Shown piece by piece: positions 2,918 through 61,132 of a DNA stretch of 64,000 nucleotides (its first letter is position 1; every line of letters starts with the position of its first letter). A program made the position numbers and the translations under genes. Below the pieces are notes generated by a model. The model made no database searches. It worked only from the letters and a program-made list of their open reading frames with translations, and was not told where the DNA came from. Origin of the DNA: a bacterium (lineage in GTDB: Bacteria > JAJVIF01). Location of the stretch: NCBI GenBank assembly GCA_022072165.1, contig JAJVIF010000001.1, positions 1,019,353-1,083,352 on the forward strand, in the 5' to 3' direction.

Positions 2918-5900
2918 TTAGAAGATGGTGCCCGACGATCCCAGGAATTTCGTCGCGAACGCGTCCGAGCTGCCAACAGACGTGAAGTTCGTCGTGCCCG
3001 GACCGGCGTCGAAGTCCATGGTGGTGCTGTAAGAGCCCACGATGATCGGGTCCTCGCCGGCAGTCAGGCCGATAGAGCGCCCGCTGTCAGTGCCGGTGCT
3101 ACCTAGTAGCGACAGCCAGATTGTGGCGCCAGTGGACGGGTTCATCTTGATGACATAGAGGTCGCTCCCCCCCACGGGGGTCTGTGCACCACCACCAAAA
3201 TCTGCGCCGGTGAACCAGTCGCCTGTAGCTACCACACCAGAAGCAGTAACTGCGACACCGCGTCCCTGCTCAGAAGAGGTACTGCCCGTGAACGTGCGGT
3301 CCCAGACATACGCTCCGGTCGTAGAGTTCAGGGCGACTACGAACGGATCAGACACCGTGGTGCTGCCACCGGCGGTCCGGACGCCACCACCGAAGTCAGT
3401 CGTGTTGAAGAAGCGACCGGTGGCATAGACCCGGCTGCCATCGGCAGCCACCGCGTTCACATACTCCAGGTTCGCAGCACCTGTGCCATCGAAGACATAG
3501 TCCCAGACATGTGCGCCAGTCGTGCCGTTCAGCATGACCACGAAACCGTCGCCGGATGTGTCGGCATTGCGAACACCGCCGCCGAAATCCATGAGGTTGC
3601 GATAGTAGCCACCCACTGCGACATTGCCCGAGGGGGTGAAGGCGGCTGCCATCGCGCTCTCATTCCCCGTGGCCGGTCCATTAAAGGACTGTCCCCACAG
3701 GGCTACACCAGCCGAGCTAATGCGGACCACGTACGGATCCTGGCTAGTTGAGGTTGGGCCGCCAGCTGATGTGAGAGTCACGGAACCCCAATCTTCGGTG
3801 CGATTGAACTTGCCTGTAATAACGACATCCCCCGTGGCCTGATCGACCGCCAGGCCGTTAAACTCCTGGAAATCGGTGATTCCGGAGCTGGTCCCCGGAC
3901 CGCTGCTCCTGGCATTCCAGATGGGGGTGCCTGTGGCGCTGTACTTGCAGACGAAGGTGTCGTAGTTCGAACTCAGGACAGAGGTGTTGTTTGTCTCCGG
4001 TCCGAAGCCGAAGTCCATAGTCTGGCGCCAGTAGCCGTAGACGATCACATTGCCAGCGCTGTCAGCTCCGATCCCCTGTGTATCTACCCAGGTACCAGAT
4101 AGGGACCCCAGATTGCGATCCCACAGGTAGGTGCCGCTGGAGTCCAGAGCCACTATGCTGTTTCGTGGAGTCGCAGCGGAGTTAAGTGGTCCCCCACCCC
4201 AGTTGGTGTTAGCGGCAAACGCACCAATGAGGTAAATGTTGCCAGCAGAAGAGACCGCCACACCACGCGCAGATTCCGCGCTGGTGGTTTGCGTGTTTGG
4301 CGACCAGACCCAGCCGGAAGGCCCGCCGCCGGTGATGGTGCCATTGACCGTCGGATACGCGGTCCCGCTGGTGGTGGGATGCAGGGCGTCGTTGGCATAG
4401 ACCGTAAAGGTCACGGTGGCATGCGGGGGATTAGCGATGGGGGTGGTGTTAGCGGCGTTGGGGAACGCGCTGAACGTCAGGGTGTCGCTGTTGCGATTGT
4501 TGACGATGGTGTAGGAGATGGTGTCCCCTTCGGGGTCCGTTGCGGTCCCGGTCCCGGCGTTCATGGTGAAGGTCGCCGGGGTCGGCAGCGAGGCTGAGGC
4601 CAGCGCCCGGGTGCCCGTCACTTGCGGGGGGCGGTTCGGTCCGAGGGTGTAGCTCAGGGGATAGTCCACCTGGTCGGTGCCATCATCCAGGCGGACGATG
4701 ACATCAATGGGATCCGGCGTCAGGTCGAGATTGTTCATGTTCGGCGACGAGGGGGTCTGCGCCGGATAGGGGCTGTTGAGGCCGCTCACGACGGTCACAA
4801 AGCCGAGCCCATCGCCCCAGTCGACACTGATGTCCAGCGGATCACTGTCCGCATCGGCGATCCCCGTGATGCTGACCCCCGCCTGGGTCCCGGAGAGCAA
4901 GGTCGCCCCACTGGTCAGCGCGACCGTCGCGCTCGGTGGCGCATTGAATGCGAAGAGCGGGACCGTGAAGGCCTGATAGGTCACCGACGCCGGCGTCACC
5001 GCCAGCGGCGCGAGATTTTCGTCCAGGCCAATCAGCAGCCCACTGGCGGCATCCGCAGCCCGGACCACCCCCACATAGTTGTTCGGGACCTGGCCGGACC
5101 CCGCCGGCTTGGTCACCAGCCCGGTCATGAAAATCGCATCGCCCGGTCGTCCGGAGTCCTCGCCCGGATCGCCGCCCGATGATGTGTCGTCATCGATGAC
5201 CGTCCCGATGGGAGCGGTCACAGTGGCATCGCCCAGGATCCCCGGGATGCAGATATCAAGAGTCGGGACGCCACTCTCGCCCTGCGCCACGTTGGTGAAG
5301 CTGGGATCAGTGGCCAGGTCCGCTTCGGTGGTCTCGGTCGCCCGGGCATCCCAGTCCTCGACATAGAAGCTGAAGTCCACCGCCGAAATGGTGTCGGCAT
5401 AGAAGAGCCCATCCTGGCTTTCCAGCCGAACCCGGTGCACATCGAGGGCACCGTGCGGCATCCGGTAGGCAAACAGACTCGCATCCGGACTCGCCGGTGG
5501 GAGGCGGTTCGCTTTCTTCTGCGCCGGGGTCGCTCCGCCGCGGGGATCGTTGTAGACCGCGATCATGGCAACGTCGAGGCTGAAGCCCCCCCCGATCGCG
5601 CCTTTGTTGAAGCTGACGGTGTTCGCCGCCGCCTGTCCCTGATGCAGGACCCCATACCCGGTCCAGCCATCGTTCGCCGGACCAAACTCACTCCGGGTCC
5701 AGCCGTCGCTTCCGAAGTTCCCGGTGACGTCCCCGCCGTTGGAGACGCCAAGGCGGGCATCCGCCAGTTCATCGACCAGCTGCCGATATGGGAAGGTGTT
5801 CGCCGTCCCGCTGGTGGTCAGCAGCCCACCTGGGCTGAAATAGGCATCCGCGTTCGCCACCAGGTCATGGTTTAGCACCCGGTCGGTGAAGTACGTATGA

Positions 5901-6406
5901 CCGGTCGCGGTCGGGACGTCCACCAGGAAGAGCGCCATACCGCTGATCCCCAGGTCCGCCCGGTTCGTGGAGCCATTCGGGGTGCCCGTGATGTTGTTCG
6001 GCGCGGGGAAGGGATGCTTCACCACATACTCCACGTCGATCGTGGTCCCGGTCGCGCTGACCCCGGTCACCTGGAAGGACTTGGCGTTGAGGAAGCTATC
6101 AATGGAGAGCAGATACAGGTCGTCATTCGCCTGCCCCGCCCGGGTCGCTTTCAGGGCGCTGGTGGCCGTCAGGGTCGACGGGTCCACCGTCACGGTGTAG
6201 AGCGCCAGGGCGGCGGTCTGCACCAGCCCCGCCTGACTCGGCGTCCCCAACGCGGCCGGCGTGTTCAGCACACTGGTCGGCAGGGCACCTGATGGAGTGG
6301 ATGATGAGGATGCAGACGGGGGGCTGACCGGGGACGATGACCCACCGGCACACCCCAGCAGGGCCGCTGCGGACAATGCCGCCGCGGACCAGAGCAGATG
6401 GCGCAT
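2918..6406 (-). CDS. Giant-family secreted lipoprotein B with C-terminal beta-propeller repeats
   Basis: 1162 residues from the ATG at 6406, chosen because GGAGGTCTCGCTC precedes it and a lipoprotein signal follows (lipobox LLGC, Cys19). An in-frame ATG further upstream is unlikely. The shared N-terminal domain spans roughly residues 60-480, with VKHPF, STNRADLG, NADAYFSPGG and a VEDWD element. A middle region with WGDG and DPEGD motifs resembles PKD- or cadherin-type Ig-like folds. From about residue 750, repeats built on DFGGG plus alternating VVALNSTTGAYVWDR-like strands match the SBBP type of seven-bladed beta-propeller. The neighbour at 6624-10271 is a close paralogue. The first 182 codons are exactly duplicated at 1-548. 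The precise role is unknown; a surface-exposed binding or adhesion protein is an inference. Confidence 0.88.
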   Translation of the reverse strand: MRHLLWSAAALSAAALLGCAGGSSSPVSPPSASSSSTPSGALPTSVLNTPAALGTPSQAGLVQTAALALYTVTVDPSTLTATSALKATRAGQANDDLYLLSIDSFLNAKSFQVTGVSATGTTIDVEYVVKHPFPAPNNITGTPNGSTNRADLGISGMALFLVDVPTATGHTYFTDRVLNHDLVANADAYFSPGGLLTTSGTANTFPYRQLVDELADARLGVSNGGDVTGNFGSDGWTRSEFGPANDGWTGYGVLHQGQAAANTVSFNKGAIGGGFSLDVAMIAVYNDPRGGATPAQKKANRLPPASPDASLFAYRMPHGALDVHRVRLESQDGLFYADTISAVDFSFYVEDWDARATETTEADLATDPSFTNVAQGESGVPTLDICIPGILGDATVTAPIGTVIDDDTSSGGDPGEDSGRPGDAIFMTGLVTKPAGSGQVPNNYVGVVRAADAASGLLIGLDENLAPLAVTPASVTYQAFTVPLFAFNAPPSATVALTSGATLLSGTQAGVSITGIADADSDPLDISVDWGDGLGFVTVVSGLNSPYPAQTPSSPNMNNLDLTPDPIDVIVRLDDGTDQVDYPLSYTLGPNRPPQVTGTRALASASLPTPATFTMNAGTGTATDPEGDTISYTIVNNRNSDTLTFSAFPNAANTTPIANPPHATVTFTVYANDALHPTTSGTAYPTVNGTITGGGPSGWVWSPNTQTTSAESARGVAVSSAGNIYLIGAFAANTNWGGGPLNSAATPRNSIVALDSSGTYLWDRNLGSLSGTWVDTQGIGADSAGNVIVYGYWRQTMDFGFGPETNNTSVLSSNYDTFVCKYSATGTPIWNARSSGPGTSSGITDFQEFNGLAVDQATGDVVITGKFNRTEDWGSVTLTSAGGPTSTSQDPYVVRISSAGVALWGQSFNGPATGNESAMAAAFTPSGNVAVGGYYRNLMDFGGGVRNADTSGDGFVVMLNGTTGAHVWDYVFDGTGAANLEYVNAVAADGSRVYATGRFFNTTDFGGGVRTAGGSTTVSDPFVVALNSTTGAYVWDRTFTGSTSSEQGRGVAVTASGVVATGDWFTGADFGGGAQTPVGGSDLYVIKMNPSTGATIWLSLLGSTGTDSGRSIGLTAGEDPIIVGSYSTTMDFDAGPGTTNFTSVGSSDAFATKFLGSSGTIF

Positions 6407-52003: not shown

Positions 52004-53002
52004 CTACTGACGTGCGGCAGGCTGTGGACTGCTCTCACTGTCCACCGGCTTCGACATACTCACAGGGAGCATGAGGTCCTCGGGAATACGAGTGGTGGGC
52101 ACTTCCAGGTCAGACAACGACAGCCAGCGGCTGCTCTCCTGTTGAAAGCGGGAGATGATCCGCAGGTCATTGGTCCAGCTGACCGAAGCGCTCCCCGGAC
52201 GGGTGGCATCCAGGCGGTGTTGCATCAGCCAGGGGGTGGCAGTTCCGCCTTCCAGCAACAGCCCGATTTTCTGCCCATCTTCTGATCTGAGATATGCGGC
52301 CTGCGGGTAGGTCCCGAGAATCCGCTCCAGCTGACGCTCACCGACCGCCAGTCGGAGGCTGGCAAAGGCCTCCGCCGGCTCTGATGGGTAGCGGCCGTGA
52401 GTCACCGCATACATCGTGAGCGGCAGCAGCAGCTTCGCCGCGCTGTGCTTGTACCAGGCGTCCCTGTCGGCCTCTCGTTCGGCCCGGAGGGTCTCCAGCC
52501 GCTTTTCCAACTGGAGGTCCTGCAAGTCTGCCTCCTGGCTGGCGAACTCCGGTGCCGCCTGAAAGATGTACTGCCACGCCCTGGTCGCGCTTGCTGGTGC
52601 TAACCCGACGCCAGGAATGGCGGGAAGATGCGTACCCACGGAAACAGACCAGGGCTGGCCAGCTTCGTTCAGGGGCCAGACGGTCGCTTCGTTCAGCAAC
52701 CCCTGCAGGTCCTCCGGGGCCTCTCCCTCCCGACAGACATAGGCGTCCCACCAGGATCGGGGAAGCCCCGAAAAGAAAAAGGTCTGTTGCTCAGCGATCT
52801 GCAGGTCTGGCGGCAGCGCCAGGGGATCGATGCCAGGGGGGAGATGCGATTCGACCGCCACTGCGGGTGGGCTGTCCGAAGGCGACATCGAATCGCTGGC
52901 CTGAGCCCGTTGCCCTTGCGGGTTTGACTGATTACAGGCAGCCACCAAAATGGCCACCAGCAGGACCGGAATGGAGTTGACGATGTTGCTTATCCGGGAC
53001 AT
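52004..53002 (-). CDS. Secreted lipoprotein, 330-residue family, member 1
   Basis: 332 residues. Lipobox VAAC anchors it at Cys23. It is a paralogue of the 53669-54655 product: both contain AEQQ plus a PRxxWD segment, a WP...PW pair, GVxL, a YAVTHGRYPSEP/YAMRYGEYPETV match, AAYxRSxDG, LEGGxAxPWLxQHR and PEDL near the end. The family is not one I recognise. A GGAGG site sits inside the end of the upstream cysteine-rich gene, which it overlaps by 13 bases, so the two are made together. Periplasmic or surface location is predicted. Confidence 0.75.
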   Translation of the reverse strand: MSRISNIVNSIPVLLVAILVAACNQSNPQGQRAQASDSMSPSDSPPAVAVESHLPPGIDPLALPPDLQIAEQQTFFFSGLPRSWWDAYVCREGEAPEDLQGLLNEATVWPLNEAGQPWSVSVGTHLPAIPGVGLAPASATRAWQYIFQAAPEFASQEADLQDLQLEKRLETLRAEREADRDAWYKHSAAKLLLPLTMYAVTHGRYPSEPAEAFASLRLAVGERQLERILGTYPQAAYLRSEDGQKIGLLLEGGTATPWLMQHRLDATRPGSASVSWTNDLRIISRFQQESSRWLSLSDLEVPTTRIPEDLMLPVSMSKPVDSESSPQPAARQ

Positions 53003-53411: not shown

Positions 53412-53483
53412 GGCGGTGTCGCCGGCGGTGTCGCCGGCGGTGTCGCCGGCGGTGTCGCCGGCGGTGTCGCCGGCGGTGTCGCC
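53412..53483. repeat. Minisatellite: six 12-bp units GGCGGTGTCGCC
   Basis: Six identical tandem copies, followed by GAATAA. The same unit followed by GAATAA is at 54791-54814 with only two copies. It lies just upstream of the cysteine-rich gene and may be in its promoter or 5' leader. A peptide repeat in the overlapping frames (GDTA, AVSP) is a by-product. Confidence 0.9.
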
Positions 53484-53585
53484 GAATAATATCACTATTC
53501 TTCCGCGAGTCAAGTTACCATGCATAAATGGTCGCCGTTTCACTTGGGCAGCAATCGACAGCGGACAAATGGCGGCTCGATACAT

Positions 53586-53668: not shown

Positions 53669-54655
53669 TTAGCGGGGCTGCATCGTCTGGCCGTTTGAGG
53701 CGTCTGTGGCTGCCTCCGGTACACTGCCGATGCCCAGCAGGTCCTCGGGCAGTTGCAACGACTGCGCCTTCAGGTCGGCTAATGGCAACCAGAGGGTCGC
53801 ACCTGCTTTGAACTTTTCGACTTTTTTCATCCCATTGGTCCAGGCGATGGCACCGCTGGGTTGAGGCTGCCGAATCCGGTGTTGCACGAGCCAGGGCTGC
53901 GCTGCACCACCCTCCAACACCAGGGCGACTTGCGTCCCATCCGCACTTCGCCAATACGCGGCCGCTGGGTGAAGGGCGAGGACCTCCTGGACTTTGCGGA
54001 AATCCACGCCGATCTGAAGCTGCTCAAACGACGCATCGACTGTTTCTGGGTACTCGCCATATCGCATGGCATACAGCGCCACGGGTCGGAGCAGATCAGC
54101 AGCCCGGTAAATCACCCACGAGTTGGGATCAGCGGCCGCCTGTGCTTCCAAATCCTGCCGATGTTTCTGGAGATAATCACCCGCCGGAAAATCGTAGGTG
54201 TTGACGCCAAACTCGGCGGCTCCCTGGGAGAGCCAACGCTGTATTTCCCCAGTAGGGGTTGCTTCCAGCGCAACCCCGGGTGCCACAAGTGACTGCCCGG
54301 GCAACGCCAGATTCCAGGGCTTCGTATCTGGCATCACGGGCCAGGTACAAAGCGCACCCAGCAGGGCGTCAGCGGTGGCGGGCGGCTCACCGGTCCGTAC
54401 GGTTATCAGGTCCCAGAGCCCACGCGGTGTGTTGGCCAGCAGGAAAATCTGCTGTTCAGCCAGCTTCAGATCAGGGGACAGATTCAACGTGTCGAGCCCG
54501 TTCGGCAGGACCCCGGGAGTTGGCACCTGTGCGCTGCCAACGGTAGCGGCAACATGCTCATCGCGCGGCGAAGCAGTCTCTGTCTGGCATCCCAGGAGCA
54601 GCAGCCCGCCGAACAGCAGCAGAGCACTCCAGGCGAGAGTTCGCTTTACAGGCAT
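53669..54655 (-). CDS. Secreted lipoprotein, 330-residue family, member 2
   Basis: 328 residues from the ATG at 54655, preceded by AAGGAG seven bases upstream. Lipobox LLGC anchors it at Cys23. It shares the family pattern with member 1 at 52004-53002: LKLAEQQIFLLANTPRGLWD, CTWPVMPDTKPW, PGVALEATP, YAMRYGEYPETV, HPAAAYWRSADGTQVALVLE, AAQPWLVQHRI and LPEDLLG. The start lies inside the end of a small frame that keeps only the tail of a cysteine-rich gene. Function is unknown; the shared layout suggests both modules arose from one duplication. Confidence 0.75.
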   Translation of the reverse strand: MPVKRTLAWSALLLFGGLLLLGCQTETASPRDEHVAATVGSAQVPTPGVLPNGLDTLNLSPDLKLAEQQIFLLANTPRGLWDLITVRTGEPPATADALLGALCTWPVMPDTKPWNLALPGQSLVAPGVALEATPTGEIQRWLSQGAAEFGVNTYDFPAGDYLQKHRQDLEAQAAADPNSWVIYRAADLLRPVALYAMRYGEYPETVDASFEQLQIGVDFRKVQEVLALHPAAAYWRSADGTQVALVLEGGAAQPWLVQHRIRQPQPSGAIAWTNGMKKVEKFKAGATLWLPLADLKAQSLQLPEDLLGIGSVPEAATDASNGQTMQPR

Positions 54656-54771
54656 CGGATGTCTCCTTCGCACCAGCAATTGGTGCCGAACATTTCGTAC
54701 CCGGGCGAACAGACACCCAGATTTACGATCGAGGTGCTAAGGAACGCGTTTATTCCACGCCGAGCTTTCAT
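54646..54771 (-). pseudogene. Truncated cysteine-rich gene (remnant, possible 41-residue ORF)
   Basis: A frame from the ATG at 54771 gives 41 residues ending CSPGYEMFGTNCWCEGDIRC, which matches the tail of the cysteine-rich protein at 52990-53388 (CWPGYVGTNDCWCKEDVQC). The signal peptide and most of the mature part are missing. It overlaps the next lipoprotein gene by ten bases, as the intact copy does. This looks like an internally deleted copy; it could still serve to couple translation. Confidence 0.6.
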
Positions 54772-55974: not shown

Positions 55975-57099
55975 CTAAACCTTGGAGGGGTCGTACTCCC
56001 GGTACTCGATCCAGCCCTCGACCTTCTGGAGTTCCTGGACCGCTGCCTCATCGACCTCAGTCGGCAGGACTTCAGCCAGATGCCGCTTGTGCTCTTCCGG
56101 GGACAAGAGTTCGCCCTGGGCGCTGAACGGCATGTTGGCGTACTGCCCAATGCGTCGGTTGAACTTGATGTCCGGGGTGTAGAGGAGCGGTTGCCCTTCA
56201 GGGACCAGCTTGTTCAGTCGCTGGATGATGCCATCGACTTCGTCGTAGTACTGCTGACGGCTCCGCTCGTTGAGATGCCGCTTGTCGGCTTCCGGGAGGT
56301 CCGGCGACTCGTCATAGCGCCCCTTCAGGCCCCAGACATAGGCCCATTCCGCCGAGCCCGATTCATCCTTGCCGAAGAGGTCATAGGCGGTGGGAATCCA
56401 CTTGTTCAGCCACTTCTGGAAAAGCGGAGTCGGGACGACCCCCGCTTTGATGATCCGCTGCATCCCGGAGGTACCGGTCCCCATGTGGAAGTTTTCTTCC
56501 TTCAGCATCGGGGTCATGCTGCGGGCCAGAGGCTGGAACGCCGAGTGCTCCAGCATCTTGAGCTGGAACTTGCCATCGCGGTCCACGAAATTGGTGTAGA
56601 TGAAGAAGTCGACCCAGTTGGTGACATCTTCATTGAAGGAGCCGAGAAGCCGCTGCTTGTTCCAGGAGCGTCGCTCCAGCTGCTTCTGGGCTTCGCGACG
56701 TCCTTCCTCGCCGAAGTGCTCGATCATCAGGTAGCACATCTGCCAGCCGTGGCGCATTTCCTCGCACATCACCCGGCCAAGGCAGTAGCCATCCCACTCA
56801 CTGGGAGTGGTATGGACCAGCTGACGCTGCTGCTCGACGGACGCGAACTCGGTGTCGCCCTGATAGATGATGAGATGGAGCAGGGCATCGCGGATGTTCT
56901 GGCCGGGGATGTCGCGCAGCCGCTCCCACTTCTGCTGCCCCCGAAAGTCGCCGAACTCGATGACCGGCGAGATGACCTCATCCGCGAGGAGGGTCTCGAA
57001 CTTGTACTGGCTGATGTAGGGATGATCAAAGCCAATGGCATCGCGCCACTGGTGGAACTGATCCACCCACTCATCGAAAGCGGCCTGTTTGGACGACAT
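55975..57099 (-). CDS. BoxB/PaaA-type diiron oxygenase subunit
   Basis: 374 residues from the ATG at 57099 (GAGGAGGGG upstream). The ferritin-like four-helix fold of the phenylacetate-catabolism family is indicated by CEEMRHGWQMCYLMIEHFGE and EENFHMGTGTSGMQR, both with the E-x2-H iron ligands. Upstream helices add Glu residues (FETLLADE and a QGDTEFAS helix). BoxB epoxidises benzoyl-CoA with BoxA; PaaA acts on phenylacetyl-CoA. At 374 residues it is shorter than BoxB and longer than PaaA. No reductase partner is adjacent, so the substrate is uncertain. Confidence 0.75.
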   Translation of the reverse strand: MSSKQAAFDEWVDQFHQWRDAIGFDHPYISQYKFETLLADEVISPVIEFGDFRGQQKWERLRDIPGQNIRDALLHLIIYQGDTEFASVEQQRQLVHTTPSEWDGYCLGRVMCEEMRHGWQMCYLMIEHFGEEGRREAQKQLERRSWNKQRLLGSFNEDVTNWVDFFIYTNFVDRDGKFQLKMLEHSAFQPLARSMTPMLKEENFHMGTGTSGMQRIIKAGVVPTPLFQKWLNKWIPTAYDLFGKDESGSAEWAYVWGLKGRYDESPDLPEADKRHLNERSRQQYYDEVDGIIQRLNKLVPEGQPLLYTPDIKFNRRIGQYANMPFSAQGELLSPEEHKRHLAEVLPTEVDEAAVQELQKVEGWIEYREYDPSKV

Positions 57100-57248: not shown

Positions 57249-57728
57249 CTACGGGGCAGTCAGAAACTCTTCCCACGCCAGGGCGGGGACCAGCAGGCGT
57301 CCCGCTGGCTGCCAGTCGATCCCCTCAGGGTTGTCATACCCATTGAACGAGGTGCGCCGAAACGTGACCGGCTCCCAGTAGATGACACTTTCCCTGAAAT
57401 CTGGCCACCCATCCTGATCCCGGTCCCGTTGCGTGTGGCTATAAAGGGTTCGCAGATAGCGCCGGTCCGGGCTGACTTCCAGTCGAATCTCTCCCTCGCC
57501 TGGTTGACGGGGCTCTGTGGGGGTGGCGACCCGGTAATACTGCGGACTCATCCGAAATTGCAGCAGCACCTCTGACCAGTCTGTGAACAGCTCATCGTTC
57601 ACATGTATATAGCTGTCAGCGAGCTGAACAATCACCGGCTGCAGCATGATGTGCGGCAAATACACGCGAAACTCTTCAGCGGTCCCGTTCCAGGGATGCC
57701 GGAGATTGGTCGGCAACTTCGCATAATG
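57249..57728 (-). pseudogene. 3' part of a frameshifted lipoprotein gene
   Basis: 159 codons that continue the 57676-58251 product in another frame, beginning with HYAKLPTNLRHPWNGTAEEF. The join is at a run of seven G (57729-57735 on the plus strand as C). With one G fewer, one protein of about 333 residues would result, close to the 328 and 332 residues of the nearby lipoproteins. The segment has the DRDQDGWPDF loop typical of calcium-binding secreted proteins. No ribosome binding site precedes an internal start. Confidence 0.6.
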
Positions 57729-58251
57729 CCCCCCCAAATTGACTGAGCATCCCCTGATAGAGATGTTCCAGGGACGAGGGTCCCAGGGAGTACCACTCCT
57801 GCTTTCGATTGGGGTCGGCACATCGCACGCTCAGGCGGGTTTGTTCCGGATGCAGTTGCAGGCGGACCACGGTCGGCCCCAGGATCTCCACCGGAGCGTC
57901 CCAGGCCACCAGAGGCCGGAGGTGGCCCTCGGCATCCTGCGGGAGATGACTCAGCCAGGGGCTGAGGGTTTCGGGGGTCTGGGGCCACTGACCGGTCAGG
58001 AAGCGGGCCAGGAGCATCCCGGTCATCAGATCGGTATCTAAAAAGAGCGACTGGGCGAACTCGAGCCCCCCTGGGCGGCCTTCCCGGAGCAGCAAGTGGA
58101 GCAGAGGACGAGTGGGGTCCGCAGCCTGCTGTTGCCGTTGTTGCTCCCTGTGGACTTCTTGCCACCGCTGGAGCACGGCATCAGGTTCAGCACAACCCAA
58201 CAGCGGGATAATCAGCAGACAGAGCAGACTCAGTGTAGAGCGACGGTTCAT
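57676..58251 (-). CDS. Secreted lipoprotein, 5' part (frameshifted at a G7 run)
   Basis: 191 residues as it reads. Lipobox PLLGC anchors it at Cys20, followed by a charged Gln-rich linker. Segments such as MLLARFLTGQWPQTPETLSP have the feel of the 330-residue family (YAVTHGRYPSEP in member 1), but similarity is weak. After residue 174 the frame runs into unrelated-looking sequence (ALCEVADQ), while the other frame continues sensibly. The event may be a sequencing or assembly error, a real mutation, or a slippery tract that switches the gene. Confidence 0.6.
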   Translation of the reverse strand: MNRRSTLSLLCLLIIPLLGCAEPDAVLQRWQEVHREQQRQQQAADPTRPLLHLLLREGRPGGLEFAQSLFLDTDLMTGMLLARFLTGQWPQTPETLSPWLSHLPQDAEGHLRPLVAWDAPVEILGPTVVRLQLHPEQTRLSVRCADPNRKQEWYSLGPSSLEHLYQGMLSQFGGALCEVADQSPASLERDR

Positions 58252-58396
58252 TGTTGCCTCCGGGTGCGAAACTCAATGGAGTTTACCAAAGCATCGAATT
58301 GTTGTTCCGGCATCGAGCATTACGATCCATTTGACTGGAGCTGACGCACCTGCAATCTGTTCCAGCCTTGTACCCGTGCTACATGTATGTGCCAGT

Positions 58397-59436: not shown

Positions 59437-60264
59437 ATGGCAACCACCATCGCCGCGACCGACACTGACCAGAAAGTCCTGGTGCACTACGAGAATCGTG
59501 AGGGAGTGGCCTACATCACCCTCGATGATCCGCCGGCCAATACCTACACTTATGAGATGAACCGGCAGCTGGATGACGCCATTCTGAAGGCCCGGATGGA
59601 CAACGATGCGCATGTCATTGTCCTGACCGGCAAAGGCGAGAAGTTCTTCTCCGCCGGGGCAAACATCTCGATGCTGAACAGTGTCGACCCCACCTTCAAG
59701 TACTACTTCTGCCTCCACGCCAACGAGACCCTCTCGCGCCTGGAGCAGACTCCGAAGCTGGTCATCGCGGCCATCAACGGCCACTGTGTCGGCGGCGGCA
59801 TGGAATTCGCCATGGCCTGCGACCTGCGGATCGCCCGCAAGAACGGCGGCCGGATGGGCCTGCCGGAAGTGAATCTTGGCGTTCTCCCCGGCACCGGCGG
59901 CACCCAGCGACTCCTGCGCATTGTCGGGAAGTACAAGGCGATGGAACTGATGGTCACAGGCGAGCTCTACAGCTTCGAGACCGCGAAGGACCTCGGGCTC
60001 ATCACTGAAGTCATCGAAACCGCCAACTGCGCGGCGTTCATGGACGAAATCCACAGCTATGCCCGGCAGTTCTGCCCCCCGAACAAGGCCGCCCTCGCGG
60101 TGGGGCGCATCAAGCGCTCCTGCCAGAGTGGCGCGGAGGTCCCCTTCGAATACGGGCTGGCCATGGAGCGGGAGTTCCAGCAGTTCCTCTTCCAGAGCCA
60201 GGATGCCAAGGAGGGGATCGCCGCCTATGTCGAAAAGCGGGTCCCCCAGTTCAGGCTGAAGTAG
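59437..60264 (+). CDS. Enoyl-CoA hydratase/isomerase (crotonase family)
   Basis: 275 residues from the ATG at 59437, preceded by GGAGG. FFSAGANISML forms the first oxyanion loop, INGHCVGGGMEFAMACDLRI the second, and LPEVNLGVLPGTGGTQRLLR supplies the catalytic Glu. It should hydrate or isomerise an enoyl-CoA in fatty acid or related catabolism, working with the 3-hydroxyacyl-CoA dehydrogenase at 51002-51874 or a relative. Its transcript ends at the hairpin 60302-60328. Confidence 0.86.
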   Translation: MATTIAATDTDQKVLVHYENREGVAYITLDDPPANTYTYEMNRQLDDAILKARMDNDAHVIVLTGKGEKFFSAGANISMLNSVDPTFKYYFCLHANETLSRLEQTPKLVIAAINGHCVGGGMEFAMACDLRIARKNGGRMGLPEVNLGVLPGTGGTQRLLRIVGKYKAMELMVTGELYSFETAKDLGLITEVIETANCAAFMDEIHSYARQFCPPNKAALAVGRIKRSCQSGAEVPFEYGLAMEREFQQFLFQSQDAKEGIAAYVEKRVPQFRLK

Positions 60265-60301
60265 CACTGCCACACTCCGCCAGTTGCGGCATCAACAATC
60301 G

Positions 60302-60336
60302 ACCGGGCGGGAGCACATCCCGCCCGGTTGTTCTTT
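60302..60336 (+). terminator. Intrinsic terminator after the first crotonase gene
   Basis: An 11-bp stem (ACCGGGCGGGA with TCCCGCCCGGT, five-base loop) is followed by TGTTCTTT. It lies 38 bases past the stop codon. Confidence 0.85.
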
Positions 60337-60385
60337 CTCCCGGGTAGTGAACACTCTCATCACCAACCAGCAGGCAGCTTCGGGG

Positions 60386-60391
60386 TACTAT
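60386..60391 (+). promoter_or_regulatory. Putative -10 box TACTAT of the second crotonase gene (leaderless)
   Basis: TACTAT is followed by six bases and the ATG at 60398, without a ribosome binding site. It lies just after a terminator, so a new transcript must start here. Confidence 0.45.
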
Positions 60392-60397
60392 CGGCGT

Positions 60398-61132
60398 ATG
60401 TTCCGTCTCCAGCGCTGTGTCCTCGACTACGAGCCGCGGAATGTACTCTCGATCGAGCGGATCAATGCGCTCCGGGAAGAGCTCTTCACGCTGGCGGATG
60501 ACACCACCGATGCGATTGTGCTGTCGAGCCGTCTGACCTGGGGCTTTTCCGCGGGAGTCGACCTCAGGGACCACACAGCGGACCGAATCCAGTCGATGCT
60601 GACAGCCATGCACCAGCTGATCCGCGATCTGGTCCAGTTGCCCTGCCTGCTGATCGCCCAGGTGCATGGTCCCTGCCTCGGGGGCGCGGCCGAGCTGGTC
60701 CTGATGTGTGATGGGGTGGTCGCCTCATCCGATACGACTTTTAGCTTCCCGGAACTTCATGTCGGCTGCTACCCCCCGGTGGCAGTCGCGCTCCTGGCGG
60801 ATCGCATCGGACTCCCCCGGGCTATCGAGCTGGTCTGCTCGGGCCGCACGTTCACCGCCGACGAAGCCTTCGCCCTGGGACTGGTCAGCCGGGTCGTGCC
60901 CCGCGATCAGAAAGAAGAAGCGGTCCTGGCCTATCTGGAAGAGCTCTGCGGGCAGACCAGTCGAGCCACCCGTCGGCACACCCTGCTGACCATGCGGACC
61001 ATCGCGGCCCGTCACTGGCTGCCGCAGTTGGAGGTCAGCGAGGCCGCCTACTACCTGCTCCCTCCCAACGACCTGGCGGAGGGGGTCGCAGCCTTCCTGC
61101 AAAAACGTCCCGCTCACTGGTCCAACTCCTGA
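60398..61132 (+). CDS. Crotonase-family protein, cyclohexa-1,5-dienecarbonyl-CoA hydratase-like
   Basis: 244 residues. WGFSAGVDLRDHTADRIQSM and the following Met/His-rich helix resemble dienoyl-CoA hydratases (Dch, BamR type) of anaerobic benzoyl-CoA breakdown, which have an HTPE-type stretch there. QVHGPCLGGAAELVLMCDGV is the second oxyanion loop. FPELHVGCYPPVA keeps the Glu, and the PPVA form is also Dch-like. The substrate could be dienoyl-CoA or a plain enoyl-CoA. The start has no Shine-Dalgarno. Confidence 0.72.
   Translation: MFRLQRCVLDYEPRNVLSIERINALREELFTLADDTTDAIVLSSRLTWGFSAGVDLRDHTADRIQSMLTAMHQLIRDLVQLPCLLIAQVHGPCLGGAAELVLMCDGVVASSDTTFSFPELHVGCYPPVAVALLADRIGLPRAIELVCSGRTFTADEAFALGLVSRVVPRDQKEEAVLAYLEELCGQTSRATRRHTLLTMRTIAARHWLPQLEVSEAAYYLLPPNDLAEGVAAFLQKRPAHWSNS

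Follow-up and report, generated by a model that had tools for sequence, protein, structure and literature searches.

Genes whose coding signature changes frame have been collected by the GeneTack authors as fs-genes, and the orphan singletons among them are expected to comprise 33% gene overlaps, with the rest split between sequencing errors and recent indels (PMC3711429). Contingency loci form a second described class, in which a G/C tract lies in the gene of a surface-type protein with the frame altered beside it. For B. pertussis, phase variation has been ascribed to a C6 tract in bvgS (PMC1891110), and the HT survey makes a case for tracts located in the 5' ends of coding sequences (PMC2831843). 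The locus considered here lies in a stretch of 64,000 nucleotides (the window) from an uncultured bacterium. It is most likely one gene, about 333 codons long and encoding a predicted lipoprotein, that is interrupted at or next to a tract of seven G (Table 1).

The N-terminus of the upstream frame, MNRRSTLSLLCLLIIPLLGC, is predicted by our own lipobox rule to be a signal peptide with lipobox, as would be found in a bacterial lipoprotein. The tract falls at about codon 173 of the 333-residue product that results when the two frames are joined. The upstream frame stops at a TGA (57676-57678) some 50 nt, or 17 codons, past the tract, and the last 17 of its 191 residues are off-frame. The downstream frame is open to its terminal TAG at 57249-57251, an arrangement that the sequence-only reading had described correctly as a first frame ending soon after G7 with a long +1 frame. 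Within this downstream frame DRDQDGWPDFRE resembles a Ca-binding DxDxDGxxDxxE loop; the downstream half, this segment included, has no Pfam match at E<=10.

Table 1. Features of the broken lipoprotein gene (window coordinates).
Feature	Position	Strand	Detail or basis
Shine-Dalgarno-like site GGAGG, 5 nt 5' of the ATG at 58251	58257..58261	-	sequence
Upstream frame, comprising the start codon, a lipobox-bearing signal peptide and the first half	57676..58251	-	191 aa, ATG
Predicted lipobox LLGC with Cys20	58192..58203	-	our own rule, not SignalP
Run of seven G in the coding sense (C7 on +), with the frame change at or beside it	57729..57735	-	sequence and coding score
Downstream +1 frame: 158 codons and stop, coding signature intact	57249..57725	-	ORF and coding score

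Other genes of the window lie close by. A 374-aa relative of benzoyl-CoA epoxidase BoxB is found at 55975-57099 on the minus strand (TIGR03225, E 3.5e-74); its score, 250 bits, is below the model's cut-off of 499, and the protein is shorter than the 471-position model. Genes of the enoyl-CoA hydratase type occupy 59437-61132.

The case for one gene that changes frame comes from a three-periodic fourth-order coding model trained on the genes of this genome. Per 60 nt, frame 1 scores between -1.6 and +7.1 above the tract and between -7.7 and -28.3 below it, whilst frame 2 is negative in eight of nine blocks above the tract and scores between -0.6 and +5.7 below. The signal of frame 1 reaches about 57744, where that of frame 2 takes over, and the posterior for the switch places 89% within 57720-57760 and about 20% inside the tract (give or take about one base). 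Reading through is favoured over ending at the frame 1 stop by 26 nats. Over 57249-57725 the +1 frame contains only its terminal stop and the other two frames contain 4 and 6; by itself the open frame is modest evidence, because off-frame stretches of that length (159 codons) taken from the predicted genes of this genome also lack stops 94 times in 3264. When frameshifts were disallowed, the first gene model called the two halves as separate genes and a model retrained on a larger sample called the second half alone (57249-57716, with a TTG start), dropping the first. When they were allowed, both models joined the halves, and the retrained one returned 57249-58251 as one gene. The earlier suggestion of one lipoprotein gene broken at or beside G7 is thus upheld as the most likely arrangement by the switch in coding score. 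The locus shows both the mid-gene disruption of frame by which a recent pseudogene is recognised and the homopolymer inside the gene at the frame change by which a contingency locus is recognised.

A similar outline would result if there were two genes, with the second beginning at GTG 57821 or at a TTG next to the tract. The second frame does contain GTG and TTG starts, the retrained model without frameshifts chose the TTG at 57716, and the overlap share quoted above for orphan singletons would favour such an arrangement (PMC3711429). Against this, frame 2 has no ATG near its start, and its blocks starting at 57831 and 57771 score -11.9 and -5.2; a start at GTG 57821 is unsupported because frame 2 scores as non-coding there. 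Moreover, the coding signal of frame 1 fades some 65 nt short of that frame's stop, where frame 2 gains signal, and we regard two genes as very unlikely.

The full protein could also be made from an unchanged gene if ribosomes underwent a programmed +1 frameshift, or if transcription slipped, at G7, and a slippery run is indeed located at the frame change. Neither of the features expected of a programmed +1 event, a stop at the shift site and a stimulatory structure, is present: the stop of the first frame lies well past the tract, and the downstream RNA does not fold stably (z = -0.40, with 65 of 200 shuffles folding equally well). Searches of 58 other genomes for the second half and a pattern scan of r220 for the joined protein turned up no relative arranged in this way, and none of the remaining coding runs of at least 7 in the sample described below was judged to lie at a mid-gene frame change. 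Recoding is accordingly the least probable of the readings weighed here.

The sequence-only reading had proposed that G7 is a phase-variation switch, in which slipped-strand mispairing at the tract toggles a surface lipoprotein and the assembly has captured the off state. The combination of a lipoprotein, a G tract and a frame change near it is what such a switch would present, and short C tracts can vary, as bvgS illustrates for C6 (PMC1891110). A bearing on this comes from tract abundance in a sample made up of the window plus sixty 20-kb stretches (61 stretches, 1.264 Mb, 39% of the genome, 882 predicted genes). G/C runs of at least 7 show no enrichment over a second-order Markov expectation, in the sample as a whole (252 observed, 255.5 expected) or within predicted genes (168 against 191.9), and runs of at least 9 are rarer than expected (9 against 18.9). 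A tract of seven is therefore no longer than chance would provide. Its position in the middle of the gene is also unlike the 5'-end placement argued for in the HT survey (PMC2831843). Six remotely related lipoprotein genes of this genome, whose kinship to the G7 gene is weak, have G/C runs of 6 or less and no reported frame break, and the homologue searches described below found no orthologue that would display on and off states. With tract abundance at chance and one coding run in 193 at a break, the proposed switch finds no support, and we consider phase variation unlikely.

A C12 run at L075:3838-3852 (G000:C2:241838-241852) follows directly on an ATG and is the longest G/C run among the matches listed. 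Downstream of it is a gene of 808 codons (3927-6353), without a Pfam match and provided with a GGGAGAG site of its own. At a length of 12 C the short frame is closed after 18 codons, and another frame is open into the 808-codon gene. This putative element is a better candidate than G7 for length-dependent expression.

The same picture would arise, as the sequence-only reading had also allowed, from a local sequencing or consensus error, the organism having one uninterrupted gene and the assembly being wrong at the tract. Homopolymers are the classic location for such errors, and an error would leave the coding signature intact on both sides of the tract, as is seen. A general homopolymer problem would, however, yield far more breaks, increasing in number with run length. 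Amongst 193 coding runs of at least 7 in the sample, the model places a frame event no more than 60 nt from 10, and only one, the G7 described here, was judged to lie at a mid-gene break; yet when one-base changes were simulated at 131 tracts situated 30 codons or more inside genes, the model flagged 124 of the 131 insertions and 123 of the 131 deletions to within 60 nt. The other nine tract-side events were rejected on reading as gene ends, junctions or model noise; those in L014 and L099 (at 6756) were dismissed as model noise in Gly/Pro-rich stretches. Coding runs of 6 have a frame event within 20 nt in 6 of 625 cases, four of which read as gene ends, one as the L024 break, and one (window 50996) as an apparent gene end judged from the ORF list. 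Genome-wide there are 32 distinct runs of at least 9; 24 were examined, 18 of these are coding, and one of the 18, in L059, is at a break. The low rate of breaks argues against a generally error-ridden assembly but does not clear this single site, and a local error is possible, ranking behind a real mutation and ahead of phase variation.

The census of frame events gives the same impression of few broken genes. The sample contains 215 model events, of which 18 pass a filter for events away from gene boundaries; from the 197 that fail it, those near tracts were read. Three of the 18 were accepted, namely the G7 gene and two in L024. Nine were rejected after their translations had been read, and one of these nine, in L112, sits on a run of N (the sample has two runs of 10 N, which may be scaffold gaps or masking). 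Six (L015, L018, L090, L099 at 8354, L101 and L105) were rejected by position alone, since in each the switch lies no more than 5 nt from the end of the upstream frame. The accepted events amount to two broken genes, the G7 gene and a PKD-repeat lipoprotein gene (L024/L074), which is a lower bound because no more than 91 and 77 of the 131 simulated breaks get through the filter.

The PKD-repeat gene (L074:2731-5556, minus strand; G000:C2:418731-421556) begins with a lipobox-like N-terminus, meets a stop codon within the first 100 codons and changes frame several times, once at a G6 run. It is flanked by two long PKD relatives with open frames, and its last piece matches Reprolysin-like models weakly (E 0.024), as does one of the neighbours (E 0.01). 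This gene would appear to be a decayed copy, perhaps with a repeat misassembled or collapsed. The nonsense codon together with the frame changes implies that real decay of lipoprotein genes probably occurs in this genome. A further lipoprotein gene with PKD domains and a lipobox-like N-terminus, L059:992-2879 (minus strand), changes frame at a coding-strand C9 run (G000:C1:1823586-1823594); it lies outside the 1.264-Mb sample, and as a second lipoprotein gene altered at a homopolymer it counts in favour of phase variation.

All three broken genes (the G7 gene, L024/L074 and L059) thus have a lipobox-like N-terminus. By our own lipobox rule 83 of the 882 genes are lipoprotein-like, accounting for 16% of coding bases; the G7 gene is missing from the 83, its first half having been lost in the retrained model. 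No preference for such genes is expected of random errors, and the three-out-of-three count is suggestive, as a post hoc observation on three genes. It is conceivable, though improbable, that some dispensable surface lipoproteins of this lineage are kept as a pool of alleles broken by slippage, which would provide low-rate and unspecialised surface variation; the three genes on which this idea is based contribute the G7 here, the C9 in L059 and one L074 lesion at G6. Our lipobox rule also flags five of six large proteins (569, 805, 902, 1027, 1162 and 1215 aa) encoded at window 770-34823, where all six have no Pfam match at 1e-5.

Searches for relatives of the G7 gene returned little. Among 58 other genomes nothing matches the second half at E<=0.01, and 3 genomes of the same class contain no match to the first half at E<=10; in its own genome the first half matches, beyond itself, only L002, weakly (E 0.98). 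A pattern-based scan of GTDB r220 with the joined protein, which detects close relatives only, gave 47 stretches fitting the peptide pattern, none of them confirmed by tblastn. Neither half matches Pfam at E<=1, the joined protein has no NCBIfam match at E<=0.01, and there is no match among PDB sequences at E<=1. Folded without an alignment, the joined protein reaches a mean pLDDT of 41. The nearest RpoB to that of this genome belongs to MAG: bacterium isolate AUK107 (72%), and the other 79 of the best 80 (332 confirmed) stand at 55% or less.

Two lipoproteins encoded at lower coordinates on the same strand, at window 52004-53002 and 53669-54679, belong with L007-L010 to a lipoprotein family specific to this lineage. 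The sequence-only reading had noted that the joined product has the size of nearby lipoproteins; the sizes do agree (333 against 332 and 336 aa), but these proteins are at best remotely related to it. The first half matches the family in an N-terminal profile comparison (hhalign E 0.00087, probability 23%), a match that may stem from the signal peptide, and the second half does not match (E 0.3, probability 0.2%). The neighbouring lipoproteins were not accepted as true relatives, the only link being this weak N-terminal profile match. All six aligned family genes are open frames; the L034 row of the alignment has a TAA inside the aligned span, yet a 318-codon open frame exists at that locus. 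Near both lipoprotein genes in the window, at 53412-53484, are six perfect tandem copies of the 12-base unit GGCGGTGTCGCC.

We propose that the G7 gene has suffered a recent and real indel in a dispensable gene of restricted lineage, and place the probability of this explanation at about one half. Ordinary replication slippage would recently have changed the length at or beside G7 by a single nucleotide, so that translation from the ATG would now run into the early stop past the tract. The exported protein would be truncated and is probably non-functional or dispensable. The lesion would be young, since the second half keeps a gene-like codon signature and has no premature stop, and the absence of any homologue in the searches above is as expected for a dispensable orphan gene. 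Either fixation or polymorphism of the broken allele in the population is possible, and nothing points to selection for switching. Several considerations weigh against a recent indel: a local consensus error would look identical; only about 20% of the posterior is inside the tract; the coding signal of the first half is modest, and the retrained model without frameshifts omits that half; and the lipoprotein enrichment is a post hoc count of three genes. Whether real or apparent, the broken gene looks like an ordinary one-off and not a dedicated switch.

As it stands the significance is slight, one orphan lipoprotein gene having been broken by mutation or by assembly. If reads were to give mixed tract lengths, the locus would bring homopolymer-based variation of the surface to a bacterial phylum about which little is known. 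Comparison with described systems can be summarised as follows: (i) the lipoprotein family of the same genome resembles the G7 gene in the lipobox-type N-terminus (of its window members), in similar length and in a weak N-terminal profile match, and differs in that the second half of the G7 gene is unmatched and the six family genes are open frames; (ii) contingency loci share a G/C tract in the gene of a surface-type protein with the frame altered beside it (PMC1891110, PMC2831843), and the G7 gene is unlike them in that its tract is of chance length, lies mid-gene and is absent from the related lipoprotein genes; (iii) the orphan singletons of GeneTack are likewise single orphan genes whose coding signature changes frame and for which no homologue is found, and no difference distinguishes the G7 gene from them (PMC3711429).
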